In this document: positions 28,596 to 58,489 of the stretch, piece by piece | How positions within the stretch are numbered: the stretch's first letter is position 1 | How the letters are laid out: each line of letters begins with the position of its first letter | Assembly: GCA_004322425.1 (NCBI GenBank) | Contig: SCVJ01000022.1 | Span: 28,064-92,063, forward strand | Reading direction: 5' to 3' | DNA length: 64,000 nt | From: Chitinophagaceae bacterium | Lineage (GTDB): Bacteria > Bacteroidota > Bacteroidia > Chitinophagales > Chitinophagaceae | The notes under the pieces: model-generated | The model's database searches: none | What the model was told of the DNA's origin: nothing | The model's input: only the letters and a program-made list of their open reading frames with translations | Translations under genes and position numbers: made by a program

Positions 28596-31500
28596 TTGCG
28601 ACTTAAAAGAATTAAAATATTTCTAGCAACAAGTATGTTGTTATTTGGCTTTTTATTGAAGTTGAATGCAACGATTATTGGGGCTTTTACTGTATCCGAA
28701 ATTTATCAACTTTCAGACACAATTCGTTTGCCCATTCGTGATCGTTATGCCGATACTTACACCTATCCTAACCAAAATCCGTGGTTATTAAAAGATACTT
28801 CTTTTATAAAAAAACAAATCGAATACGATCCGGTTTCAAAACAATATTATGTTATCGAAAAAATAGGGAGTCGTTACTATCGAACACCAATGACTTTTTC
28901 GATGAGCGAATTTATTTCACTCAAAGGGAAGGAAGATGAAAAAGAATATTTTAGAAAGAGAGCTGCCATGCTCACTTCGCTCAACCGAAGATTATATAAA
29001 CCTAAATTTAATTTTGTAAATGATTGGGTGAATAGAATTGTTGGTAACGGGAAAATTGATATTCAGCCAAACGGATATGTAGATATCATGGCAGGTTATC
29101 AAGGGCAACAAATTAATAACCCCACTTTGCCAGAAAGATCAAGAAATAACGGAGGTTTTGATTTTAACATGAATAGCCAATTTCAAGTAGATGCTAATAT
29201 TGGCGATAAATTAAAACTTCCTATCAATTATAATACGCTAGCCAATTTTAGTTTTGATAATCAACTCAAACTCGATTATCAAGGAAAAGATGATGAAGTA
29301 TTAAAATTATTGCAAGCCGGTAATACAAATTTTACAACCAAGGGAACGCTGATTCCGGGGGCTCAATCATTATTTGGCATAAAAACTCAGTTACAATTTG
29401 GAAAATTATTCATCACATCTGTTTTAGCAAACCAACGTTCACAACGCCAGTCATTGGGAATTCAAGGGGGTTCATCTACTCAGTTATTTTCATATAAGGC
29501 TGATGAATATGAAGAGAACAGACATTTTCTAATGTCGCAATACTTTAGAAATAATTTTAATAAGGCAATGAAAAATTTGCCTGTTGTAAATTCATTGATA
29601 CAAATACTTCGAGTAGAAGTTTGGATTACAAATAGAACTGGGGCCACCACAGAAACCAGAGATGTTGTGGCATTAATGGATCTTGGAGAAGGACAACCTT
29701 TTGGATTATGGACTGGAATTGGAAATGTGCCTCCACGAAATAGTGCTAATAATCTTTATCCAACACTTATTAATAGCGCCAATGCAAGAAGTTCAACACA
29801 AGTACAAAGTGTATTAACAGGATTGGGATTACAACCGGTTCAAGATTTTGAAAAAACATTTGCCAGAAAATTACATCCATCTGATTATTATTTAAATCCA
29901 CGTGTTGGATTTATTTCGTTGAACCAACAATTGCAACCGGACGAAGTAATGGGAATTGCATTTCAATATACCTATAACGGTAAAGTATATCAAGTGGGAG
30001 AATTTTCTTCAGATATTCCGCCCGATTCAACAGGAACCTCTCAGCCTGTTCTTTTTCTGAAATTATTGAAAGCTACTTCGCAACGAACCAATCTTCCCAT
30101 TTGGGATTTGATGATGAAAAATGTTTATTCAGTGGGAGTTGGGCAATTGGAAAAATCTGATTTTAAATTAGATGTGTTGTACGAAGAGCCCAGCTTTGGT
30201 GAAAAAAGATATATGCCACCAACTCCGGTGAGTGATCCATATAAAGGGCAACCATTGATTTCATTACTTAACTTAGATCGACTCAATAATCAAAACGATC
30301 CGCAACCCGATGGTGTGTTTGATTATTTGGAAGGCTATACAGTAATTGCTTCACAAAGCCGAATCATATTTCCTGTGTTGGAACCTTTTGGGAAAGATCT
30401 GGAATATATTTATAAAGGAACCGATAGTTTGCAACAACGAGCTAAATATTTATTTTATCCTCTGTACGATACGATAAAAGCAATAGCTCAAAACTATTCC
30501 AATCTCAATCGCTTCAAACTAAGTGGAAGAAGTAAATCAGGTTTGGGATCGGCAGAATATCAACTTGGATTTAATATTCCAAAAGGTTCTGTAACCGTTA
30601 CTGCTGGCGGACAGATTTTGAGAGAGAATATTGATTTTGAAATCAATTACGATTTAGGATCTCTAAAAATAATTAATCAGGCTATTATCAATGCGGGATT
30701 ACCCGTCAATGTTCAATATGAAAACAATGCAACCTATGGATTGCAAACAAAAAATTATTTAGCATTACGGCTCGACTATTTAGCTAGTAAAAAATTTACA
30801 GTGGGTGGAACGATGGTAAGATTAGGCGAAAGACCTTTCTTTCCAAAGCAGAGTTATGGCGATGATCCTATTCGAAACACGATGTATGGCGTTGATTTTG
30901 ATTATCGCAACGAAATTCCACGACTTTCAAAATGGTTGGATAAACTTCCTTTTTATTCTACCAAGACAATGTCGAATATCACCGCTTATGGCGAAGCAGC
31001 TTGGTTAAAACCAGGACATGCTCCTCAAATTGGAAAGGGAAATGAAGGAGCTGTTTATATGGACGATTTTGAAGGAACAAGAAGTAGTATTGATTTACGA
31101 TTCCCTTTAATCAGTTGGACACTTGCTTCGGCTCCACAAAAAGCTGTTGATAAAAACAATAATATTCTTTTTCCCGAAGCTGTGCTGAATAATAATTTGG
31201 AGCAAGGTTATAATAGAGCCAAGTTGGCTTGGTATCAAATTGAACAGCAGCTACAAGAAGCAAGAAACGCTAATAATCCATTGCGCAATAATTTGACTGA
31301 ACTTTCAAAACCAGAAACAAGACAAGTTTATCAAAAAGAAATTTTTCCAAATAGAACAACCGATTATGGCCAATCCATTTTACCAACTTTTGATCTTGCT
31401 TTTTATCCGGGAGAAAAAGGCCCTTATAATTTAGAATATAGAAACAGCAGAGTAAATGGTTCGGGTAGATTATTAAATCCCAAACAAACATGGGGTGGCA

Positions 31501-34500
31501 TTATGCGCCATATTGATCAAACAGATTTTGAGACAGGAAATATTGAGTTCATAGAATTTTGGTTACAAGATCCATTTATTAATAAAACAGGAAGTACAGG
31601 AGGCGAATTATATTTTAATTTAGGAAACATCTCTGAAGATATTTTAAAAGATGGAAAACGAATGTTTGAAAATGGATTACCTACTCCGCACAATACTACA
31701 TTGCCCGTAGATAACAGTACAGTTTGGGGAAGAGTACCTTCAAATCCATTGCAAATTACCAATGCCTTTAGTAATAATACTGAAGATCGTCCCTTTCAGG
31801 ATGTTGGTTATGACGGATTAAATGATGATTTAGAAAAAGAAAAGTTTAAAATCTATATCAATAATCTGGCTACAAACTTTGGAATCAATTCTTCTCTTTA
31901 TCAAAAAGCAACCATCGATCCCACGGCAGATAATTTTAAACATTATCGTGATGGTATTTATGATCAACCTTTAGCTGGAATTTTGCAACGATATAAAGAT
32001 GTAAATAATCCCAACGGAAATTCTCCCGTTAATCTTAATAACTCACAACTAAATGCTTTTACAATGTATCCCGATCAAGAAGAAATGAATCGGGATAATA
32101 CATTGAATGAAGTAGAAGAATATTTCCAATATCGAGTAGAATTGAAACCCAATATGTCGGTAGGTTCTAATTTTATTACTGACAAACGAGTTGTTTCGGT
32201 TGAACTTATCGACAGAACAAAACGAGACGAGACTTGGTATTTATTTCGAATTCCTGTTTCGCAGTTTCAAAATAAGATTGGTAATATTCCCGATTTCAAA
32301 TCCATTCGATTTATTCGAATGTTTCTAACTGGTTTTGATGATACTGTTGTTTGTCGATTTGGAAAATTAGAATTGGTGCGTAATCAATGGCGACGCTTTA
32401 CTTATGAAGTGGATACAACGGGTATTTTTAAAACGTTGCCTACAAATGATCCTACAAAGGTTGATGTTTTGGCAGTCAATGTAGAAGAAAATGATCGTCG
32501 ACAACCCATTCGATATGTAGTTCCACCGGGTATTGAGAGACAAAGCCAATTAAGCAATAACAATGTTGCATTATTGGAAAACGAACAATCATTGAGCTTG
32601 CGGTTTCGTGATTTGGCAGAAAATGAAACCAGAGCAGTCTTCAAAACAATGCCTTTTGATCTTCGACAATACGGTCGTCTTTCATTATTTGTTCATGCCG
32701 AAGAAATTTTTCAAAACACATTAAATGATAAAGACCTTAATGCTGTAGTAAGAATTGGAAATGATTTTGTAAGTAATTACTATGAAATAAGAGTGCCCCT
32801 GAAAATAACACGATGGGGTGCTACCGATTCGCTTACAATTTGGCCAATAGAAAATAATCTAGATTTTAATTTACAAGAATTAACAACGCTTAAAGGGAAA
32901 AGAAATAAAGCGGGAATTTCTCCTTCCAATTATTTTAGCGAAACTATTAATGGTAAAAAATTTGCAATCATTGGCAATCCCAATCTCGGCGAAGTAAAAG
33001 GAGTATTGCTTGGAGTGGAAAATGTAAAAGTGGAAAATGCAAATGCCGAAATATGGTTTAATGAACTTCGGTTATCCAGTATGGATGAAGATGGAGGCTG
33101 GGCAGCGGTAGGGCGAATGGATGTTACATTAGCTGATTTAGGTAATGTAAGTGTTTCGGGAAGAGCAAGCAGTAAAGGTTTTGGAACCTTGGAACAAAGA
33201 GTGAATGAAAGAAGTCGCGAAGATTTTTACCAGTTTGATGTTTCCACAAATATTGACGCAGGAAAATTATTACCTAAAAAAGCGAATCTTCAAATTCCTA
33301 TTTATGCGGGCATCAGTCGTACTAGTAGTACACCTGAGTATGATCCATACGATTTGGATATAAAAATGAAAGACAAACTTAGAGAGTCAACAAAAGATAT
33401 TCGCGATTCTATAAGAAATGATGCGTCCGATATTACCACTATTAAAACAGTGGCATTGACCAATGTAAAAATGATTAAAACAGGAAACAGAACTCCACAA
33501 CTTTGGGATATTTCTAACCTTGATTTTAATTATTCAATCTATCAAATGGAGCGCAAAAATCCTTTAATTGAAAGCGAAATGATGAATCGAACAAGAGGAG
33601 CAATTGGTTATAATTTTGCAATTCAGCCTCGCTATTTAGAGCCATTCAAAAAATTAATAGAGTCCAACTCTAAATGGATTTCTTTTATTAAAGATATCAA
33701 CCTCAATTACAAGCCATCGCAAATTTCTGTAAAGGCCGACGTGTTTCGGCAGTTTGGTGCGATGCAACCTAAAAATGTTGGTGGTGGCCCATATAAAGTT
33801 CCTGAATCGTTTGATAAATTTTTTACGTTCGATCGTTATTATGTATTGCGTTGGGATTTGACACGATCTATAAATCTTGATTTTAGTGCAACGAATAATG
33901 CACGAATTGATGAACCTATTGGTAGAATAGATACAAAAGTTAAAAAAGACTCTATTCGTAATAACTTTTTTAAAGGAGGACGAAACACACACTTTCATCA
34001 AGAAGCAACAATGACGTATAATTTTCCAACTAATAAGTTCCCACTTATTGAGTGGACAAAACTGCGTTTCAATTATAAATCGGAATATGATTGGATGGGA
34101 GCGTCGCTATTGGCAAAAAATTTAGGTAATATTTTGTCTAATGGTCAAACAAAAAGTGTAGATGGTGAACTTGATTTTGAACAATTGTATAATAAATCAA
34201 AATTGCTGCGCGCTGTATTTGCAGCACCATCTGCAACTAACGCAGCGCTTCCGATTGCTCCAAAAAATCCTTCATTGGATTCACTAAAAAACATTTCGAA
34301 CTTAGATTCACTTTCAAAAAAACAATTGAGAAAATTACAGAAATTTGAAAGAAAACAAGCAAGGCAATTACGCAAAGAAGGACGAAAAGATCAAATTCCT
34401 GTAATAAATAATGGTGTAAAAACGATTGTTCAAATTGCCACTTCTGTAAAAAGAGTTGGCATACAATTTTCTGAAAATGCCGGAACGAGTTTGCCCGGAT

Positions 34501-44992: not shown

Positions 44993-46117
44993 TTACGCCA
45001 AGGTATAAATTTTTCCCGGTAAGCTGTACACAAGCCCACTAAATTCAAGTTGCAAAATGGCAGCAGCAACAGTACTACTACTCAAATTACTTTTTAAATT
45101 GATTTCATCAATAGAGACAAATTCTTTTTCTTTCAAAATGGTAACTATAATTTTTTCATCTTTATTTAATTCAACAAAAAGTTCCTTTTGCATTTTACTT
45201 TTATTTTTCTTTGTTTCTTCCCACCCCATCACAGCAACAAATTCTTGGGTGCTTGAAAACAAGATTGCTTTATTATTTCTGATTAAATAATTACAACCGG
45301 TACTTTTTTTATCTGTTAATTTTCCAGGAACTGCAAACACATCTCTATTGTATCCATTCGCCAATTCCGCAGTAATCATGCTTCCGCCTTTTATATCAGT
45401 TTCTATAACAATTGTGGCGTCGCTTATTCCGGCAACAATTCTATTTCTAATTGGAAAATTATGTTTATCGGGTTTTACTTTGCTTCTGAATTCCGTCAAT
45501 AAACCGCCATTATTTTTCAGCATTTCTTTAGCTAATATTGAGTGCTCAGCGGGATAAATTTGATCCAATCCGTGCGCTACAATTCCTACGGTTGCTAAAT
45601 TATTTTTCAGTGCGTTTTTGTGAGCAAGCGAATCAACACCCAAAGCCATACCGCTTATAATTAAAATATTTTGGCAGGCAATTTCTGAAAGCAGTTTTTC
45701 TACAACTTGTTTAGCATAAGTAGTATTACTTCTTGTGCCTACTATAGAAATAATTTTTTGGGAATTTAAATCGGCATTGCCTTTGTAAAATAAAAGTGTA
45801 GGTGAGTCGTAGCAATTTAATAAACGCTGCGGATAATTTTTATCGGTAATAAACAGCGGTTTAATTTTATATTTTTCAATAAATTCTATTTCTTCTTCTT
45901 CCTTTTTAAAATCATGAAAGGATTTGATGTTCCTCGCTCTTATTTCACCAATACCCTCAATCTTTTTTAGCTGCGATTCTTTTGCTTTGAAAATGGAAGT
46001 TGCCTCACCAAAATGTTGGATTAAAATTTTTGCTTGTACACAACCAATCTGTGAAACCTCTGAAAGTGCAAGTTGGTAGATCAATTCATCGGACATGGGT
46101 TTAAGAATTAAAGGCAA
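44993..46117 (-). CDS. dprA: DNA-processing protein DprA
   Basis: KNYPQRLLNCYDSPTLLFYKGN...IVGTRSNTTYAKQVVEKL...ISGMALGVDSLAHKNAL...NGGLLTEF...NFPIRNRIVAGISDATIVIE. Confidence 0.95.
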   Translation of the reverse strand: MPLILKPMSDELIYQLALSEVSQIGCVQAKILIQHFGEATSIFKAKESQLKKIEGIGEIRARNIKSFHDFKKEEEEIEFIEKYKIKPLFITDKNYPQRLLNCYDSPTLLFYKGNADLNSQKIISIVGTRSNTTYAKQVVEKLLSEIACQNILIISGMALGVDSLAHKNALKNNLATVGIVAHGLDQIYPAEHSILAKEMLKNNGGLLTEFRSKVKPDKHNFPIRNRIVAGISDATIVIETDIKGGSMITAELANGYNRDVFAVPGKLTDKKSTGCNYLIRNNKAILFSSTQEFVAVMGWEETKKNKSKMQKELFVELNKDEKIIVTILKEKEFVSIDEINLKSNLSSSTVAAAILQLEFSGLVYSLPGKIYTLA

Positions 46118-46152: not shown

Positions 46153-48066
46153 TTAAAAGGAAACTATTTTCATTTCTGTTCTTCTGTTTTGGCTCCTTCC
46201 ATTTTCCGAGTCGTTTGTTGAAATGGGTTGGCTATATCCAAATCCAATTGCTTTTAAGCGATCTGTTGCAATTCCTTTTTGCGTTAAATAATTTACCACT
46301 ACTGTTGCACGATTTTCAGACAGGGTAAGGTTTTCAGCATGGTTTCCAATATTGTCTGTATGCCCACTGATTTGAATTTTCAGGGTTGGATTTTCTTTCA
46401 GCAATTGCACAAGTTTTTCTAATTCAATTTCCGATTCCGGTTTTAAATCAGATTTTGCAAAATCGAAAAAAATATTCTTCAATATTATTGAAACTTCTTT
46501 TTCTATTGGCTGTAACGAAATATTTTTTTCAAACAGGGTGTCGATTTCGTTTTGCTTCAATAAAAAATTATCCGAATAAAAAAGATATCCTTTTCGATTT
46601 ACATTGAATAAGTAATTTTTTCCAACAGGAAGGGTTATTAAGTAATTCCCAGTTTCATCTGTTTGAGTTTTTGAAATTAATCCGTTTGTATTTAAGTCAA
46701 TTAATTCTACAGAAGCTTGTATTCCTTTGTTTGTTTTTTTATCAAAAACAAGTCCTTTTACCCAAAGCGTTTTATGGGGTTGGATGTACTTTGGTAATTC
46801 AAAACTATAAATATCTAATCCGCCACGACTATCCGATTTGTTGCTAGAATAAAATGCTGTTTTTGCATCGGCAGCAATAAACAGTGTTCCTTCTTCATGA
46901 ATGGTATTGATTGGAAATCCTAAATTTTCTGGTACACTCCAACTCGAATCAGGACCTTTTCGAGTTACAAATAAATCACTTTCGCCATAGCCCAGCAAAC
47001 CATTGGACGTAAAATATAATGTTTGATTATCGGCATGAATAAACGGAGAACTTTCATCGCCATTAGAATTTATTTCTACACCTAAATTTTCAGGGCTACT
47101 CCAATTTCCATTTTGCAATAAATGCGAAACATAAATATCGCTGCCACCATAACCACCCCATCTTCGACTGGCGAAATACAAGTCTTTTTTATCGGGCGAT
47201 AAGCAAGGCTGTGAATCCCATTGATCCGAATTTATTTTATCGCCAAAATTGATGGCTTCGCTCCAGCCATCTTTTGTAAAAAATGAAATATAAATATCGC
47301 AACCACCCCAACCGTCTCTTCTGTCGCATCCTGTAAATACTAACCATTGTCCATCTTGCGAAATATTTTGAGCGCCTTCATTCAAAAAAGTATTTACGTT
47401 TCCGGCAAGCGGAGCCGCTTTTGTTCTTTCATGGTTTATTAAATGAGATGAAAAAAAATCTTCATTGGTGTTATTCAGTCTTCTTGTAAACACTAATTCT
47501 TTTCCGTCAATAGTCAATGATGGAAAATATTCCGATTCGGTTGAATTAATACTATCGCCTAAATTTTTTGGAGCAAAAACATATTTTGCCAAAACATTTT
47601 TTTTATGAAATTCTACTGCAAACTCAAAACATTTTTTTCGATAATCACCGGCTTTCCGACTGTTGATACCCAAATTGGGATTAGCTAAATAATTGTTGAC
47701 GGCTTGTAATGCTTTTTCAAATTCTCCGTTGCCAGCAAGGCTTATTGCATAAGGAAGTTGATACAGTTTTGTAGTGGCACTATCTTTTAAAAAAGCAGTT
47801 TCATAAAAATGAGTGGCTTGATTATGGTCTTTAATTTGTCCATAAACTCCTGCAAGAGAAAGAAAAGCAGCTACAAAATTGGTGTCCTTTTCGGTTGCTT
47901 GTCGAAATAATTTGATAGCTTCCTTGTAATCCAACTCCTGTGTTTTTGAAATACCATTATTGTATAATTGTTCTGCTTTTGAATGAATTTTAATCGGCTG
48001 CGCAGTAACTGAATAGTTAAAATACAGACAATTCGAAAGAAAAAATAGGGGTAAAAAAAATTTCAT
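46153..48066 (-). CDS. TPR - WD40-like (PD40) propeller - carboxypeptidase-regulatory-like - OmpA protein (PorE-like architecture)
   Basis: TPR (AEQLYNNGISKTQELDYKEAIKLFRQA); propeller repeats (PCLSPDKKDLYFASRRWGGYGGSDIYVS); CRD (WVKGLVFDKKTNKGIQASVELIDLNTNG); OmpA (IQISGHTDNIGNHAENLTLSENRATVVVNYLTQKGIATDRLKAIGFG...NRRTEMKI). Confidence 0.88.
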   Translation of the reverse strand: MKFFLPLFFLSNCLYFNYSVTAQPIKIHSKAEQLYNNGISKTQELDYKEAIKLFRQATEKDTNFVAAFLSLAGVYGQIKDHNQATHFYETAFLKDSATTKLYQLPYAISLAGNGEFEKALQAVNNYLANPNLGINSRKAGDYRKKCFEFAVEFHKKNVLAKYVFAPKNLGDSINSTESEYFPSLTIDGKELVFTRRLNNTNEDFFSSHLINHERTKAAPLAGNVNTFLNEGAQNISQDGQWLVFTGCDRRDGWGGCDIYISFFTKDGWSEAINFGDKINSDQWDSQPCLSPDKKDLYFASRRWGGYGGSDIYVSHLLQNGNWSSPENLGVEINSNGDESSPFIHADNQTLYFTSNGLLGYGESDLFVTRKGPDSSWSVPENLGFPINTIHEEGTLFIAADAKTAFYSSNKSDSRGGLDIYSFELPKYIQPHKTLWVKGLVFDKKTNKGIQASVELIDLNTNGLISKTQTDETGNYLITLPVGKNYLFNVNRKGYLFYSDNFLLKQNEIDTLFEKNISLQPIEKEVSIILKNIFFDFAKSDLKPESEIELEKLVQLLKENPTLKIQISGHTDNIGNHAENLTLSENRATVVVNYLTQKGIATDRLKAIGFGYSQPISTNDSENGRSQNRRTEMKIVSF

Positions 48067-49706: not shown

Positions 49707-50540
49707 ATGAATAGCTTGAAAACAAGCTGTTTCTTTTTGTTGCTGTTTTTGAATTCTAGTGCAACTATTGGTCAGACAATTCGCCGACCAATTACTATTC
49801 CTTTTGTTGGACAATCTACATATAGTAGTAATCAAGTTGATGTTTTTTCGTTTACAAAAAATCAAGCTGCATTAGATCATTTGACAAATACTGCTGCAGG
49901 TATTTATGCTGAAAGAAAATTTTTATTGGAAGAAATGAGTTTGTATCAAGCAGTTTTTGTTATACCTACTTCATCAGGAAATTTTGGACTTAACACAGTT
50001 TATTTTGGGAGTAACATCAATAATGAAACACAGATTGGCATAGCTTATGGAAGAGGTGTTGGAAAAAAAATTAATCTGGGAGTGCAGTTTAATTACAACA
50101 GCTTTAATGTACTTGGTTATGGAAAAACATCAACAATAAATTTTGAAATTGGAACCATTTTTCATCTAACTGAAAATTTTAATATTGGATTACATGTATA
50201 TAATCCTATTGGTGGAAGATTTGGTAAAAATGCTGCTGAGCAATTGGCTTCGGTTTATTCTTTTGGTTTAGGATATGATGTTTCGGATAAATTTTTTGTT
50301 ACTGCCGAAATGGAAAAAGAAGAAAGCCAATCTTTAAATATTAATGCTGGGTTTCAGTATAGATTTTTGAAACAACTGATGGTGAAGGGTGGAGTTTATA
50401 CAAACAATGAAACAATTTATTTTGGTTGCGCCATTTTTCTAAAATCATTTCGAGTGGATGTGGGAGCAAGCTATCATCCGCAATTGGGCATCACACCAGC
50501 ATTGCAATTAATCTATTCGTTTAAAAAAAATGAGCAATGA
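49707..50540 (+). CDS. Exported protein, probable outer-membrane beta-barrel
   Basis: Signal peptide; alternating aromatic/glycine beta-strand pattern (GIAYGRGVGKKINLGVQFNYNSFNV..., VKGGVYTNNETIYFGCAIF...LQLIYSF). Confidence 0.65.
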   Translation: MNSLKTSCFFLLLFLNSSATIGQTIRRPITIPFVGQSTYSSNQVDVFSFTKNQAALDHLTNTAAGIYAERKFLLEEMSLYQAVFVIPTSSGNFGLNTVYFGSNINNETQIGIAYGRGVGKKINLGVQFNYNSFNVLGYGKTSTINFEIGTIFHLTENFNIGLHVYNPIGGRFGKNAAEQLASVYSFGLGYDVSDKFFVTAEMEKEESQSLNINAGFQYRFLKQLMVKGGVYTNNETIYFGCAIFLKSFRVDVGASYHPQLGITPALQLIYSFKKNEQ

Positions 50541-52579
50541 AAAAAGTAGTTATCATATTTTTTTATGTTCAATTTTTTTGTTGCTTTTGTTGTGCACAAG
50601 AAACACCAACATCGGAGGAAGAATTAGAAAATCTTGTGAATAGTACACAGTCAGAAACAGAAGATGATAGTTATACCCAGCAATTAGAATATTATTTTAA
50701 GCATCCGCTTAATTTAAATATTGCTACAGAAAAAAACTTGAAAGAATTTCAACTGCTTTCGGGTTTGCAGATTGCCAATTTTCTTTCGTATCGGAAATTG
50801 CTTGGAAAAATTTCCTCCATTTATGAATTACAAGCCATTCCGGCTTGGGATATTTCAACCATCAACAAAATTTTACCGTTTGTAATAGTTAAAGAAGAGA
50901 ATAAATTTTTTAATAAAAAGGAAAAGCAAATTTTTGAAACGCCGCATTCCATCTTGCTAAGGTTGTCGCAAATTTTGGAAAAGTCAAAAGGGTTTAATTA
51001 TTTTCCAACAACCGGGAAAAAATATTTAGGATCACCACAAAAAATATTTTTGAGATATCGGTTTCAAAATAACAAGGGGATTCAATATGGATTTTCAGGA
51101 GAAAAAGATGCCGGAGAAGAATTTTTTCGAGAAACGCAAAAACAAGGATTCGATTTTTATTCGGCTCATTTGTTTTTGCGAAATGTCAATAATTGGAATG
51201 CTATTGCGATTGGCGATTATACAATTAATATGGGACAAGGATTGATTCAATGGCAAGCATTGTCATTTGGCAAAAGTTCAGAAATTAGTTCCATAAAAAA
51301 ACAATCATCAGTTTTGATGCCGTACAATTCTGCCGGAGAAATTAATTTTCATCGAGGGGTTGGAGCAACATTTAGAAAAAATAAAATAGAAGCAACTGTA
51401 TTTGCATCTATCCGAAAGTTGAGCGCCAATTTTATTTCAGATACGGTGAGAAATGAAGATTATGTTTCTTCTTTTCTTTCATCGGGTTATCATCGTACAG
51501 AAAGTGAAATGGCAGATCGAAATAAATTGAATCAATTGGCAATGGGAGGGAATATTGCGTACCAGTCTGGATTTAATCATATTGGCATTAATGGAGTTGC
51601 GTATCAATTTTCAAATCCTATAAAGAAAAAAGACGAACCGTATAATTTGTACGCAATCAACGGAAAGACTTGGAGCAATTTTAGTGTTGATTACAGTTAT
51701 ACATATAAAAATGCTCATTTTTTTGGTGAAGCTGCTGCTGATAAAAATTTCAATAAAGCTATCTTGAGTGGTCTACTTATTAGTGTTGATAAAAAAGTAG
51801 ATCTCTCTTTTTTGTATCGAAATTTTAGTAAGCAATATCAATCCATTCAGGGAAATGCTTTTTCTGAAAATACATTTCCCACCAATGAAAAAGGATTTAT
51901 GGCGGGTATTCGTATTCGTCCGGTTCCAGCTTGGCAGATTGACGCTTATGTTGATTTGATAAAATTTCCTTGGTTAAAATATAATGTTGATGCGCCTTCA
52001 ACGGCGAAAGATTTTTTACTTCAAGTTAAATTTAATCCCAATAAAAAGTTAGAAATTTATTCCCGTCTCCGAAGTCAATCCAAAGAACAAAATCAGGCAG
52101 GAAATACTTCTGCAACTAATTATTTAGTAAATATTCCGCAACAAAACTGGCGAACACAATGGAGCTACAAGATCAACACAATATGGTCAATAAGAAATAG
52201 GGCAGAGTTACTGTGGTATCAAATAAGGACAAACAATAAGGAATTTGGATTCTCAACTTTTGTTGATTGTATTTATAAGCCGCGGAATAAACCTTGGTCG
52301 GGCAATGCTCGAATTCAGTATTTTAAAACCGATAGTTATAACAGTAGAATATATACTTACGAAAATGATGTATTATATTATTATGGCATTCCGGCTTTTT
52401 TTGATCAGGGGATACGATACTATTTTAATCTAACGTATGATGTTTCCAAAAATATTTCAGTTTGGATGAAATGGTCGCAATGGCACTATCAAAATAAAAC
52501 TACAACCGGGTCCGGTTTGGATGAAATTAATGGTTCAAAAAAGTCAGAATTGAGACTATTAGTTAGAGTAGTTTTTTAA
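50537..52579 (+). CDS. Exported helix-hairpin-helix (ComEA-like) domain protein with probable C-terminal beta-barrel
   Basis: Signal peptide; LNLNIATEKNLKEFQLLSGLQIANFLSYRKLLGKISSIYELQAIPAWDISTINKILPFV (HhH); remainder rich in amphipathic beta strands ending SELRLLVRVVF. ATGA overlap with upstream gene. Confidence 0.78.
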   Translation: MKKVVIIFFYVQFFCCFCCAQETPTSEEELENLVNSTQSETEDDSYTQQLEYYFKHPLNLNIATEKNLKEFQLLSGLQIANFLSYRKLLGKISSIYELQAIPAWDISTINKILPFVIVKEENKFFNKKEKQIFETPHSILLRLSQILEKSKGFNYFPTTGKKYLGSPQKIFLRYRFQNNKGIQYGFSGEKDAGEEFFRETQKQGFDFYSAHLFLRNVNNWNAIAIGDYTINMGQGLIQWQALSFGKSSEISSIKKQSSVLMPYNSAGEINFHRGVGATFRKNKIEATVFASIRKLSANFISDTVRNEDYVSSFLSSGYHRTESEMADRNKLNQLAMGGNIAYQSGFNHIGINGVAYQFSNPIKKKDEPYNLYAINGKTWSNFSVDYSYTYKNAHFFGEAAADKNFNKAILSGLLISVDKKVDLSFLYRNFSKQYQSIQGNAFSENTFPTNEKGFMAGIRIRPVPAWQIDAYVDLIKFPWLKYNVDAPSTAKDFLLQVKFNPNKKLEIYSRLRSQSKEQNQAGNTSATNYLVNIPQQNWRTQWSYKINTIWSIRNRAELLWYQIRTNNKEFGFSTFVDCIYKPRNKPWSGNARIQYFKTDSYNSRIYTYENDVLYYYGIPAFFDQGIRYYFNLTYDVSKNISVWMKWSQWHYQNKTTTGSGLDEINGSKKSELRLLVRVVF

Positions 52580-52734: not shown

Positions 52735-55700
52735 ATGAGAAAAATTGCCGCGCTATTACTGGCAACTGTACTCAGCACAACGCTGGTATTTGCCCAAACC
52801 CGAACTGTTTCGGGAGTAATAACAGATGCAACCGGAAAATCTGTTCCGTTTGCCTCAGTTACCGTAAAAGGCACCAAAAATGGTGTTACTGCTGATGCTG
52901 ATGGTCGCTTTTCAATTAAAGGCGTATCGTCAGGTGCTACACTTTCTGTAACTTCTGCAGGATTTGTAGACAAGGATGTAAGTGTTGGAACTTCTGACAA
53001 CTTAAGTATTTCTGTTGCACCAAGTGGTGCTATGACAGAAGTAGTTGTCACGAGTGCTTTCGGTATTAAAAAAGCACAGCGTACTACGCCTTACAGCTCT
53101 CAGGTTATCAAAAGCGAAAACCTAAACATTACTTCAAACACAAACATTGTGGAAGCCTTGGCTGGTAAAGTTGCCGGTGTGCAAACAAGATCTCAGTCAA
53201 ACGCTAAATTAAACTCAGAAGATTTTCTTCGGGTGCGTGGTGGTTTATCATTAACTGATATGGGCCCCATCTTTGTTGTTGATGGAACGGTTGTAAACTC
53301 TTTTGATATTAACCCCGATGATGTGGAAGATGTGACTATCTTAAAAGGTGCAAACGCAACCGCACTATTCGGAGATAGAGCAACAGCGGGTGCAATTGTA
53401 ATTAACAGTAAAAAAAGAGGATCAAAACAAGGTATTGGTGCTGAGCTAACGCAAAGCGTGATGAGTGATATGGTATATATATTACCTTCTTATCAAAACC
53501 AATATGCGGGTGGTGCTTCTGCCGATTTGATGAAATACACTTGGCAAGCTGGTCAACCAGTAGAGTGGAAAGCACTTGATGGAAAATATTTTCACGATTA
53601 TACCGATGACGCCAGCTGGGGTCCTCGTATGAGTGGTCAGGAGTATATTCCTTGGTATGCTTGGTTTCCTGGTCATAAATACTCTTTGAAAACAGCTCCT
53701 TTGGTGGCTCAACCTAATAATGCACGCGATTTCTTCAATAAAGGGTTAACTACTACTACCAATGCTTCTTTTACTAAATCAGGACCTGGTAGCAACATAA
53801 GAGTTTCTTATACCAATCAAAATATTACTGGTATTATTCCAAGTTCAAGTTCTACTCGTCATACCTTATTTACAACGGCTTCTTTTGACTTAAACGACCA
53901 TATTTCTGCCGGTGTAAATTCTACTTATACTACCCAAAGAATTCGTGGTGAGTTTAGCGACGGATATGCCAACAACTCTTCCGGTTCTTTCACACAATGG
54001 TTTCATCGTAATTTGGATATGAAGATCATGAAAGAATTAAATGGCTATAAAGCTCCAAACGGAACATTGGCTTCCTGGAATCTTTATACCAATCCTGATG
54101 GGGCAACTGGTTATGGTGATGTAATTGGTAACTACTGGTATAATTTTTATGATTATTTCCAAAATCAAAACAACTTACAATCACGCGATCGCATTTACGG
54201 AGATTTTTATCTTCAATACAGAATGAATAAAAATTTCAATGTAAAAGCAACTATTCGTAAGAATCAGATTACAACGTATTACGAGAATATTACTACATCT
54301 ATGCTACAGAAAAGTGCCGGACAATCTGGATACTTAGCAGGATATAGTACTGGTGAAACGTATTACAAAGAATACAACTACGAAGCATTGGCAAATTATA
54401 ACAATAGTTATTTGTCAAACCGTCTTAGTTTGAATGTAAATGCTGGAGCTAACGTATTAGATATTGAATCTAAATCGGCTGCAATGGCTACTTCAAACGG
54501 ATTAAATGTTCCTGATTATTATGCTATCAATAACTCAGTGGCTCAACCCTCTGTTTCAAATGGCAGAAATCAATCAAAAGTGAATTCCTTATTCGTTAAT
54601 GGAGATTTGGAGTGGAATAAATATGCAGCCATCACTTTTGCAGTTCGTAACGACTGGTATTCTGCAAACCCAATTGATCATGTTGATCTTCTTTCTCCAT
54701 CAGTGGGAGCAAGTTTGGTGTTTAGCGAGTTTACAAAAGAAAATCTTCCTTGGTTGAATTTTGGTAAAGTATTTGGTGGTTGGGGTAAAAAACCAAGACC
54801 ATTAGCTACATATCAAAATAATTTCGGTTATTCAACAGGTGCAGTTTTATGGAATGGAAATTTCTTGATGGGGACTCCTAATGGCGCTGTATCACCAGAT
54901 TTAGTAGGTAGTACTGTTTCAAGTTATGAGGCAGGCATTGATCTTCGTTTCTTAAAAGGTCGCTTAGGTGTTAATATAGTTTACTATAATGACGATAATG
55001 ATGGTGAGCCTCTAAACGTTGCTGTAAGTGGCGTGAGTGGATTTACATCTGTAGCACAAAATGCGGTTCATATTCAGCGTCAGGGTCTTGAAGTTCAAGT
55101 GAATGCTTCTCCAGTAAAAGGTAAAGACCTTAATTGGGATATTGCTACAACTTTTGGTTATGCCATTAAGAACCCTGTAGTTGACATCTTTGGTGTACCA
55201 ACCGGAAGAGTATTACTTGCGGGTGGTTCATTTGGTACTCGTTTTGCCCGTGCTTTCCAAGAAAAAGGAAAGGATTGGGGTCAATTAATTGGTGGTGGTA
55301 TCAAACGTAACACTGACGGTAAAATGGTGATCAACCCGGCTTCAGGCGCTTATATAGTTGATGCTGATAAGCATTGGGGATCTGTTCTTCCTAAATATAC
55401 CGGAGGTTTGATCAACACTTTAAATTACAAAAACTTAGTGTTAACAGTTAGCTTCGACTACCAAATAGGGGGTAAATTTTTCTCACTTTCAGAAATGTGG
55501 GGTAATTTCTCAGGCCTTTTGGATGAAACAGCAGCTATCAACGATAAAGGTAAAAATGTTCGTGATGCTGTTGCCGATGGTGGTGGAGTGCACGTAATTG
55601 GTGTAAGTTCAGTAGATGAAAAAACAGTGATTGATAAATATGTAGAAGCACAAGATTATTTCCATCAATTTTATTTTGGAAGAATTGCTGAACCTTTTAT

Positions 55701-55944
55701 ACACGATCTTACTTTCTTAAAAGTAAGAGAGGCAAGCTTAAGCTACCGTATTCCTACAAAGACTTTCGGTAAAATAGGCAAGAGTCTTCAAGGAGCAACT
55801 TTTTCTATTACAGCACGTAACCCTTGGGTAATTTACAGAGAATCTAAAAACTTTGATCCTTCAGAAATTTCTGGTGTTCAAGGTGAAGATGGTCAGTTGC
55901 CAAGTGTACGTTCAATTGGTGCTAGTTTAAAACTATCCTTCTAA
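52735..55944 (+). CDS. SusC/RagA family TonB-linked outer membrane protein
   Basis: Signal peptide; RTVSGVITDATGKSVPFASVTVKGTKNGVTADADGRFSIKGV; plug LAGKVAGVQTRSQS...LRVRGGLSLTDMGPIFVVDGTVV...DDVEDVTILKGANATALFGDRATAGAIVINSKK. Confidence 0.95.
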   Translation: MRKIAALLLATVLSTTLVFAQTRTVSGVITDATGKSVPFASVTVKGTKNGVTADADGRFSIKGVSSGATLSVTSAGFVDKDVSVGTSDNLSISVAPSGAMTEVVVTSAFGIKKAQRTTPYSSQVIKSENLNITSNTNIVEALAGKVAGVQTRSQSNAKLNSEDFLRVRGGLSLTDMGPIFVVDGTVVNSFDINPDDVEDVTILKGANATALFGDRATAGAIVINSKKRGSKQGIGAELTQSVMSDMVYILPSYQNQYAGGASADLMKYTWQAGQPVEWKALDGKYFHDYTDDASWGPRMSGQEYIPWYAWFPGHKYSLKTAPLVAQPNNARDFFNKGLTTTTNASFTKSGPGSNIRVSYTNQNITGIIPSSSSTRHTLFTTASFDLNDHISAGVNSTYTTQRIRGEFSDGYANNSSGSFTQWFHRNLDMKIMKELNGYKAPNGTLASWNLYTNPDGATGYGDVIGNYWYNFYDYFQNQNNLQSRDRIYGDFYLQYRMNKNFNVKATIRKNQITTYYENITTSMLQKSAGQSGYLAGYSTGETYYKEYNYEALANYNNSYLSNRLSLNVNAGANVLDIESKSAAMATSNGLNVPDYYAINNSVAQPSVSNGRNQSKVNSLFVNGDLEWNKYAAITFAVRNDWYSANPIDHVDLLSPSVGASLVFSEFTKENLPWLNFGKVFGGWGKKPRPLATYQNNFGYSTGAVLWNGNFLMGTPNGAVSPDLVGSTVSSYEAGIDLRFLKGRLGVNIVYYNDDNDGEPLNVAVSGVSGFTSVAQNAVHIQRQGLEVQVNASPVKGKDLNWDIATTFGYAIKNPVVDIFGVPTGRVLLAGGSFGTRFARAFQEKGKDWGQLIGGGIKRNTDGKMVINPASGAYIVDADKHWGSVLPKYTGGLINTLNYKNLVLTVSFDYQIGGKFFSLSEMWGNFSGLLDETAAINDKGKNVRDAVADGGGVHVIGVSSVDEKTVIDKYVEAQDYFHQFYFGRIAEPFIHDLTFLKVREASLSYRIPTKTFGKIGKSLQGATFSITARNPWVIYRESKNFDPSEISGVQGEDGQLPSVRSIGASLKLSF

Positions 55945-55973
55945 TAATTTATTTAACTGAAAAAAACATAAAA

Positions 55974-57437
55974 ATGAAACTTATTAAAATAACCTCAATT
56001 GCACTTTTAGCCGGCAGCATGATTGTCGGTACGGGTTGTGTAAGGAAGCTGAATGAGTTCGGAGATATGAACCTGAATCCAGGTATTGTAGCCGAGCCAA
56101 TTACTTCTGCCTTATTTACCAACGTGCTTTCCGGAATGGGTGGCGAAATGTGGTCTACCACACCAGGCTATTACTCCCAGTTATTTTCTGAAACTCAGTA
56201 CACTGAAGCATCTCGTTATGCTACGCAACGTGCCGATTTCAGTGGATATTATTCTGGCGTATTGTACGACTGTCAGAATATTATCAACTTTAACACCAAC
56301 GCGGAAACGGCTCCCAAAGCATTATCGTATGGCTCAAATGCCAACCAAATTGCTACAGCTAGAATTTTAAAGGCTTGGTGGTATTTAAGAGTTACCGATG
56401 CATGGGGTGATGTACCTTATTCACAAGCATTAAAATTTAACGGAATTATTCCTTATGATGCACAATCATCAATTTATGCTGACCTTTTCAAAGAATTGAA
56501 AGAAGCAGTAGCACAATTTGATGCGGGTGCGGCCTTCAAAGGAGATATCTTATTAGGCGGTGATATTACAAAATGGAAAAAATTTGCTAATTCACTTCGC
56601 GTAGTAATGGGTCTTCGCCTTTGCAAAGTAGATGCTGCAAAAGGTAAGGCAGAAGTATTAGATGCACTTGCAAATAGTGCAGGAGTAATTTCTACAAATG
56701 CCGATAACGTTATGATGGCTTACCCTGGAGGTACTTTCAACAATCCAATGTATGCTTATTACAATCTTACACAGCGTCGTGATGTAGCTGTAAGTGCAAC
56801 TGTTACAGACTTTATGAATACAAATGCCGATAAGAGAGTATTTTCTTTTGGCTCTGTTTCTAATAATCCAGCTATCGTAAAAGGATTTCCTTATGGTTTG
56901 GATCGTACAGCTGCTGTAAACTGGTCAAACGCAAATACAGATTGGGCTCGCGTTATCAGTAATGCTATGAGAACAGCTACAATGCCAATGCCAATTCTAA
57001 CTGCTTGTCAAGTTAATCTTGCTCGTGCAGAAGCTGCTCAAAGAGGTTGGACTTCTGAAAATGCAGCAACATTGTATAGCGCAGGAGTTCAATTAGGTTG
57101 GTCTCAGTGGGGTGTATATAATGCAGCTGATTTTAATACTTATATGGCTGATGCCGACATTTCTTTAGCTGGTGGTGGTGAAGTTGCAAAAATTGCAACT
57201 CAACGTTGGTTAGCTGCTTTCCCTGATGGTCAGGAAGCGTGGAATGTTTGGAGAACTACAGGAAGTCCAGCTTTAGCTGTTGCCCCTGGAACTACAGTAG
57301 GTATTCCTCGTCGTTTTGCTATTGCACAAACCCAATACGATTTGAATCCATCTAATACTGCAGCTGTTGGAGCAATTTACACCGTAGGTGGAATTGCTGA
57401 TTCTCAGTACGGTAGAATTTGGTGGGATAAGCAATAA
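55974..57437 (+). CDS. SusD/RagB family nutrient-binding outer membrane lipoprotein
   Basis: Lipobox IVGTGCVRKLNEFGDMNLNP; ARILKAWWYLRVTDAWGDVPYSQAL; immediately downstream of SusC. Confidence 0.92.
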   Translation: MKLIKITSIALLAGSMIVGTGCVRKLNEFGDMNLNPGIVAEPITSALFTNVLSGMGGEMWSTTPGYYSQLFSETQYTEASRYATQRADFSGYYSGVLYDCQNIINFNTNAETAPKALSYGSNANQIATARILKAWWYLRVTDAWGDVPYSQALKFNGIIPYDAQSSIYADLFKELKEAVAQFDAGAAFKGDILLGGDITKWKKFANSLRVVMGLRLCKVDAAKGKAEVLDALANSAGVISTNADNVMMAYPGGTFNNPMYAYYNLTQRRDVAVSATVTDFMNTNADKRVFSFGSVSNNPAIVKGFPYGLDRTAAVNWSNANTDWARVISNAMRTATMPMPILTACQVNLARAEAAQRGWTSENAATLYSAGVQLGWSQWGVYNAADFNTYMADADISLAGGGEVAKIATQRWLAAFPDGQEAWNVWRTTGSPALAVAPGTTVGIPRRFAIAQTQYDLNPSNTAAVGAIYTVGGIADSQYGRIWWDKQ

Positions 57438-57453
57438 GAAAAGATGCTTTAAG

Positions 57454-57485
57454 AAAAAGTGGAATAATTTATTCCACTTTTTTTA
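57454..57485 (+). terminator. Intrinsic terminator after SusD
   Basis: AAAAAGTGGAAT-aattt-ATTCCACTTTTTTT. Confidence 0.75.
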
Positions 57486-57544
57486 TTTTGTAGAAATAAT
57501 CCCTAACTTTATCGGGTATAAGCTAACTGTAAAAATATTTAACC

Positions 57545-58489
57545 ATGAAAAAAGTTTTACAAAAACTTCTTTTTCTTTCTTTAGCCTCTTTTGTGATTAC
57601 TTCTTGCGAAAAAGGTGAGGAAGCATTTCCTGGAACTCCAACAACCGAAAAAACATTAATCAAATTACCTGAAGGTGGTAATGGATTAATTACTATTGCA
57701 TTAGATTTAACACCCGGTGTTGCAGCAATTAATGTGCTTGAAATAAGACGTGAAGCTGTTAGTGCTGCTGCTTTAAATGCTCCACAAGTAGTGAAGATTG
57801 CAAAGAGTAATGCAATACTTTCAGACTTAAGTGGTGCAAGTGTAGCCGAACTTCCTAATACTTTGTACTCTTCTCATCCTGATAATCCTTATGATGGACA
57901 GTATTGGACAGTAACTTTTAAACCCGGAGAGTTTGTAAAGCATTTGAAATTTAATTTAGATCCATCTCTGTTAATTACTGCTGGTAACGTGGGAATGGGA
58001 TTTTTAATTGCAGAAGCACCCGGTTGTCAAATTAGCGATGCAAAAAGCCAGGTGGCTGTTGCCATTAGTGCAAAAAATCAATATGATGGAATTTACAGAG
58101 TATATGGAACTTTCTTTCATCCAACAAATCCAGATATAACTGGAGCGTTTGGAACAGCAACTACCGGAGGTCAATTATTGTGTGAAATGATTACTACCGG
58201 AGCTTCAAGTTTGAATCGTAATTATGGAGGTGTAGTTGGTGAGTCTGTTGTAGTATACAATAATGTGGTAGGCGTGTTTACTTATTTTACGGGAGTAAAA
58301 ATGCGTTTTTCTGTAAATGCAAATAACACAGTAAATGTAATTCCGGTTCCCGGATTCATTGCTGTAGATCCTTCACCTTATAACTGTACTTACAATCCTG
58401 CAACTAGGACATTTACATTAAACTATGGGTGGACATCAGGTGCTCAACGACTAATCACAGAAAATTTGGTTTACGTACGACCTAGATAA
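57545..58489 (+). CDS. SusCD-associated lipoprotein (DUF1735/BT_3987-like N-terminal domain)
   Basis: Lipobox FVITSCEKGEE; EVRR-type N domain (INVLEIRREAVSAAALNAPQVVKI...PGEFVKHLKFNLDPSLL) and C-terminal YDGIYRVYGTF...NPATRTFTLNYGWT. Confidence 0.7.
   Translation: MKKVLQKLLFLSLASFVITSCEKGEEAFPGTPTTEKTLIKLPEGGNGLITIALDLTPGVAAINVLEIRREAVSAAALNAPQVVKIAKSNAILSDLSGASVAELPNTLYSSHPDNPYDGQYWTVTFKPGEFVKHLKFNLDPSLLITAGNVGMGFLIAEAPGCQISDAKSQVAVAISAKNQYDGIYRVYGTFFHPTNPDITGAFGTATTGGQLLCEMITTGASSLNRNYGGVVGESVVVYNNVVGVFTYFTGVKMRFSVNANNTVNVIPVPGFIAVDPSPYNCTYNPATRTFTLNYGWTSGAQRLITENLVYVRPR

Follow-up and report, generated by a model that had tools for sequence, protein, structure and literature searches.

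The window analysed here is a 64,000-nucleotide stretch of contig SCVJ01000022.1 from a Chitinophagaceae bacterium. It contained two adjacent genes for predicted outer-membrane proteins, here called gene 1 and gene 2 (Table 1), and both products had a hydrophobic, signal-peptide-like stretch at the N-terminus. The coordinates, the strand and the ATGA overlap of the two reading frames were the same as in a preliminary description of this DNA, which had proposed that gene 2 carries a ComEA-like helix-hairpin-helix (HhH) domain in front of a barrel and has a role in DNA uptake.

Table 1. Position of the gene pair, its domains and the neighbouring dprA gene in the window.
Feature	Position	Strand	Basis
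dprA, neighbour, left out of the unit	44993..46117	-	Pfam DNA_processg_A, 1.2e-76
Gene 1, 277-aa outer-membrane protein	49707..50540	+	ORF, profile matches in relatives, AlphaFold and Foldseek
ATGA overlap of start and stop codons, which couples the two genes	50537..50540	+	Sequence; most relatives share the -4 gap
Gene 2, outer-membrane protein of 680 aa with signal peptide, acidic linker, HhH domain and large barrel	50537..52579	+	ORF and AlphaFold
HhH domain of gene 2 (residues 56-118), ComEA-like, GxG lacking in both hairpins	50702..50890	+	HHH_3 E 0.019; relatives to 2.4e-12
Barrel domain of gene 2 (residues 137-679), with ~25 beta-strands predicted and a charged, conserved lumen	50945..52573	+	AlphaFold, Foldseek and face analysis

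GTDB species genomes were scanned, 463 relatives were found and 80 loci were retained. In 73 of the 80 loci, gene 1 immediately preceded gene 2, the 4-base overlap being the commonest junction, and the pairing is not due to chance. The gene 2 family was detected in 247 of 297 Bacteroidota genomes (E<=1e-3; some of these matches were weak and may represent the HhH only) and in 70 of 80 genomes of another order, nearly all from different families. The expectation that the pair is conserved across Bacteroidetes was thus borne out.

The dprA gene was separated from the pair by about 4.4 kb and three genes and was located on the opposite strand. The preliminary description had given the distance correctly and had used it as an argument for DNA uptake. 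That argument was rejected, because dprA was found near the pair in only 32 of the 80 loci, all with the Chitinophagaceae-type gene order, as part of a block (guaB, dprA, OmpA/TPR, queE, and folD) that lies on the other strand and is gone elsewhere. In other lineages, the neighbours of the pair were purE/purK, folD/queE, or a divergent porD. On the minus strand of the window, positions 46153-48066 encoded a single protein with TPR, PD40 propeller, carboxypeptidase-regulatory, and OmpA domains, which was a conserved neighbour in 38 of the 80 loci; presumably, this is also the domain order of the type IX protein PorE. Directly downstream of gene 2 and on the same strand, a SusC/SusD-like gene pair and a lipoprotein-like ORF of 314 aa occupied positions 52735-58489, and downstream of the pair a SusC-like gene recurred in 48 of the 80 loci and a SusD-like gene in 43. 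The window also contained sprA/sov (SprA_N, ORF of 2414 aa) at approximately 29052-33380, a position computed from G000:C186:57115-61443.

AlphaFold modelling, with an alignment of relatives as input, showed gene 1 as a 14-strand barrel (pLDDT 88.7), in agreement with the earlier view of it as a probable barrel. Foldseek analysis of this model revealed similarity to FadL (6.3e-9) and to chain 8gl6_F of the type IX translocon complex (2.7e-8), which we take to be PorV. The NCBIfam family PorV_fam was matched by 23 of 26 gene 1 relatives (best 2.4e-22), and the window protein was sub-threshold. Against NF033709 (PorV/PorQ, curated cut-off 90), the window protein scored 17.2 bits, below the cut-off, and its homologue in locus L159 scored 53.5 bits. 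According to the model and the profile matches, gene 1 is a divergent member of the PorV/PorQ-FadL superfamily with a predicted 14-strand FadL-like barrel.

Its place within the PorV/PorQ superfamily is consistent with the pair being an accessory of the type IX system, in which gene 1 would act as the carrier, like PorV, and gene 2 as a smaller second translocon barrel for special cargo, resembling SprA-PorV. The divergent porD gene of several deep lineages (NF052317, 4.9e-68) points in the same direction, as does the finding that PorV of F. johnsoniae docks onto SprA at the lateral opening of its barrel (PMC10994853). The DUF4835/PorD-like gene divergent beside gene 1 was located at L143:8896-9771, with equivalents in L144-L147, L167-L170, L172, and L175-L177; the PorD identity was confirmed (NF052317) for L143 and assigned by resemblance for the other deep-lineage equivalents. 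Like the SprA/Sov-PorV translocon, the pair combines a large barrel with a barrel partner of the PorV superfamily. However, SprA has about 2400 aa, carries SprA_N and forms a barrel of 36 strands, whereas gene 2 has about 680 aa and an HhH and occurs without SprA. No match to SprA_N was found in gene 2 by profile searches with the window protein and its relatives, which speaks against a type IX accessory. Gene 2 was also considered as the type IX translocon SprA itself and was rejected, since SprA_N is missing, gene 2 occurs without SprA, and SprA is a separate gene here.

The AlphaFold model of gene 2, with an alignment of relatives as input (pLDDT 83.0, pTM 0.79), had helices at residues 45-115, followed by the strands of the large barrel. 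Foldseek matched this model to generic large barrels alone (AlgE, OprC, FecA, and the Mtr complex), with chain B of the Mtr complex as the best match (6r2q_B, 3.7e-13). This chain, MtrB, was the nearest fold, but its identity with the gene 2 barrel was about 10% at a TM-score of 0.40, and no gene for a multihaem partner was seen next to the pair. In profile searches with the window protein and its relatives, the barrel region was covered by no Pfam or NCBIfam family, and a sequence search of the PDB with gene 2 gave weak matches to the HhH of a mitochondrial elongation factor alone (best E 0.1). Strand-face analysis of the family alignments, a rough sequence-based estimate, pointed to a conserved, charged lumen, the net charges being about +6.6 (gene 2) and -3.2 (gene 1); a positive lumen, alone, is not evidence of DNA transport. 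Literature searches on a Bacteroidota HhH barrel and on ComEA in Chlorobium yielded no paper about the gene 2 family.

For the HhH of the window protein, Pfam HHH_3 gave 15.5 bits (cut-off 27) and the ComEA family TIGR01259 gave 16.3 bits (cut-off 152.35), both below threshold. HHH_3 was found at E<0.01 in 24 of 28 gene 2 relatives (best 2.4e-12), and hhalign aligned the gene 2 family profile with the third HhH of the ComEA of the same genome (90% probability, E 1.5e-6). By profile comparison, the domain is real but divergent and is homologous to the HhH of ComEA, and the proposed architecture of signal peptide, ComEA-like HhH and barrel was supported. It is fair to place the HhH in the periplasm, given the signal peptide and the C-terminal barrel.

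The preliminary description had expected DNA-binding hairpins of the GxG type and had named their lack beforehand as a refutation. All 100 close relatives lacked GxG at both hairpins; hairpin 1 was usually L-L-T/S and hairpin 2 P-G-W-D. The loss of GxG in the lineage of the window makes it less likely that DNA is gripped here by the HhH itself. Over 169 gene 2 sequences, GxG occurred in none at hairpin 1 and in seven at hairpin 2, all from deep lineages, which suggests that DNA binding was ancestral and was lost later. The deep lineages in which gene 2 retained the hairpin-2 motif included L141, L142, L172, and L176. Residues N61, Q78, G90, E97, L98, Q99, and P114 of the HhH were under strong constraint. 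A DNA-binding HhH may have been recruited early, the canonical backbone-binding hairpins being lost in the lineage of the window and other residues remaining constrained. The degenerate hairpins would also suit an ordinary outer-membrane pore for a solute or polymer (lipid, polysaccharide, or metal), with the HhH-like domain as a structural plug or protein-binding element; the Foldseek matches of gene 2 to AlgE, OprC, FecA, and the Mtr complex, the resemblance of gene 1 to FadL, and the metabolic genes that are neighbours in most lineages agree with this. Such a pore is an unlikely explanation and leaves the ComEA-type ancestry of the HhH unaccounted for.

In family f19, which belongs to the same class, the gene order was gene 1-gene 2-comEC, with junctions that overlapped (e.g., TAATG) or nearly touched, and the identity of comEC in this operon was supported by PF03772 (3.6e-60). 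Among the 61 f19 genomes scanned (25 genera), gene 2 was found in 48 and ComEC in 55; comEC was the next gene downstream of gene 2, on the same strand, in 45 of the 47 genomes with both. Of all the evidence obtained, this operon carries the most weight, and an ordinary pore leaves its conservation unexplained. It favours gene 2 as an outer-membrane DNA channel that feeds ComEA and ComEC in natural transformation in most Bacteroidota, a role to which we give about an even chance. Five of the six ComEC-negative f19 genomes had no gene 2 (Fisher p ~0.001, phylogenetically uncorrected), which favours the same role, with the caveat that one deletion can take out the whole linked operon. In G381 (C5:33089-35124), gene 2 had an in-frame TAG and the adjoining comEC frame was short (570 aa), possibly a joint decay of the two genes. 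Adjacency of gene 2 and comEC was seen in f19 and in no other lineage examined, and this linkage may go back to one event in one ancestor. Its restriction to one family, with purE/purK, folD/queE, or porD beside the pair elsewhere, counts against the DNA channel.

Among the 297 Bacteroidota genomes, ComEC was missing from eight, and seven of these were all of the f53 genomes. Family f53 had no strong gene 2 match and no ComEA match in the five genomes checked, yet these five kept SprA. This pattern favours the DNA channel, and the joint absence with ComEC and ComEA is left unexplained by an ordinary pore. SprA was present in most genomes with gene 2, and gene 1 tended to go missing where SprA was missing, as would be expected of a type IX accessory. 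However, gene 2 was present and SprA absent in G042, G276, G101, G090, G211, and G113, which included four f33 genomes, and conversely f53 and a Flavobacteriaceae-like family had SprA but no gene 2. Gene 2 is therefore not dependent on the type IX system; a type IX accessory is unlikely, and the retention of gene 2 in the SprA-negative G042, G276, and f33 genomes favours the DNA channel. Gene 1 was undetected in G268 and in the SprA-negative G042, G276, G090, G211, and G113, though gene 2 was kept, and the SprA-negative G101 had a single gene 1 match that was not beside gene 2. As gene 1 was undetected in most gene 2 genomes without SprA, it is an accessory.

ComEC without gene 2 was found in many genomes, the largest such group being family f21, which appears to be Flavobacteriaceae from its surE-lpxB-comEC gene order. 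Gene 2 was found in none of the 81 genera sampled from this Flavobacteriaceae-like family. RA0C_RS04915, an essential outer-membrane transformation protein, has been reported from Flavobacteriaceae alone (PMC8459023). As far as known, the ranges of gene 2 and RA0C_RS04915 are complementary, which favours the DNA channel. In the order around G276, three genomes (G467, G499, and G515) had gene 2 with ComEC undetected, and ten had ComEC with gene 2 undetected; these cases count against the DNA channel. G299 likewise had gene 2 with ComEC undetected. With these exceptions, the distribution of gene 2 agreed more closely with that of ComEC/ComEA than with that of the type IX system.

Gene 2 persists in a few genomes where ComEC was undetected and has spread far beyond documented competence, which would be compatible with outer-membrane handling of DNA other than transformation, for instance the secretion of extracellular DNA or the use of DNA as a source of phosphate or nucleosides, with ComEC taking part in some lineages alone. 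This is very improbable; a recurrent nuclease or phosphate-scavenging gene beside the pair would speak for it, and none was seen in the loci compared.

The genome of the window encoded a separate ComEA of 311 aa (L137:2391-3323) with an N-terminal membrane anchor, three HhH above the cut-off, one of them with LPGIG; since this is a canonical ComEA with three HhH, gene 2 is not the ComEA of this genome. An HhH protein, RA0C_RS02645, is essential for the transformation of R. anatipestifer (PMC8459023), and its architecture fits the 311-aa protein. Gene 2 was rejected as the counterpart of RA0C_RS02645, because the HhH of the latter lies at residues 236-301 and fits the separate protein. ComEA (TIGR01259, PF12836; RA0C_RS02645 with its three HhH; PGN_0421 of P. 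gingivalis) and gene 2 share a homologous periplasmic HhH module, but ComEA, whose hairpins have GxG, is small and either anchored or soluble, whereas gene 2 is a 680-aa barrel protein with hairpins that lack GxG. The secretin PilQ of the DNA-uptake systems of Vibrio and Neisseria would share the job proposed for gene 2, namely passage across the outer membrane upstream of ComEA and ComEC; PilQ belongs to a protein family unrelated to gene 2 and needs a type IV pilus. RA0C_RS04915/RA0C_RS04920 of Riemerella anatipestifer (PMC8459023) resemble gene 2 in a proposed role in outer-membrane DNA entry, in the phylum, and in the complementary range; they have been described as carboxypeptidase-regulatory-like and choice-of-anchor J proteins.

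The DNA channel is also favoured by the ComEA-homologous HhH, the hairpin-2 GxG of the seven deep-lineage sequences and the positive lumen. It is disfavoured by the lack of GxG at both hairpins in the lineage of the window, by the PorV-like partner and the divergent porD, which point to the type IX system, and by the likeness of the gene 2 model to generic large barrels. On balance, we consider a DNA channel the single most likely explanation, with roughly equal chances of being right or wrong. The proposal of a role in DNA uptake has in this way kept its ground on evidence independent of the original arguments, namely the f19 comEC operon and a distribution that follows ComEC and ComEA with exceptions, while the arguments from HhH grip and from dprA fell away.

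In such a channel, double-stranded DNA would pass through, or beside, the large barrel of gene 2 into the periplasm, and the ComEA-derived HhH at the periplasmic mouth of the barrel would act as a docking or plug element. The DNA would then be passed on to the separate ComEA with its three HhH and from there to ComEC, and gene 1, as a partner barrel of the PorV/FadL type, may gate or complete the channel. We put forward, more tentatively and at somewhat less than even chances, that gene 1 and gene 2 form the missing outer-membrane DNA translocon of most Bacteroidota, free of pilus and secretin, built from a PorV-type partner and a large barrel to which a ComEA-derived domain is fused, and replaced by an unrelated barrel in Flavobacteriaceae.

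The question at stake is the route by which DNA passes the outer membrane of Bacteroidota. Transformation of P. gingivalis requires ComEA and ComEC, and the DNA entry step has been reported as unclear, no type II or IV secretion having been identified and the conjugation pilus playing no part (PMC11532111); for R. anatipestifer, a unique transformation machinery has been proposed (PMC8459023). The pair described here is a good candidate for the entry route. As a near-universal barrel with a ComEA-derived domain, which lies in a comEC operon in one family, gene 2 with its partner offers one gene pair with which the question can be tested phylum-wide, and the pair would be relevant to gene flow among bacteria of the gut, the mouth and aquatic habitats.
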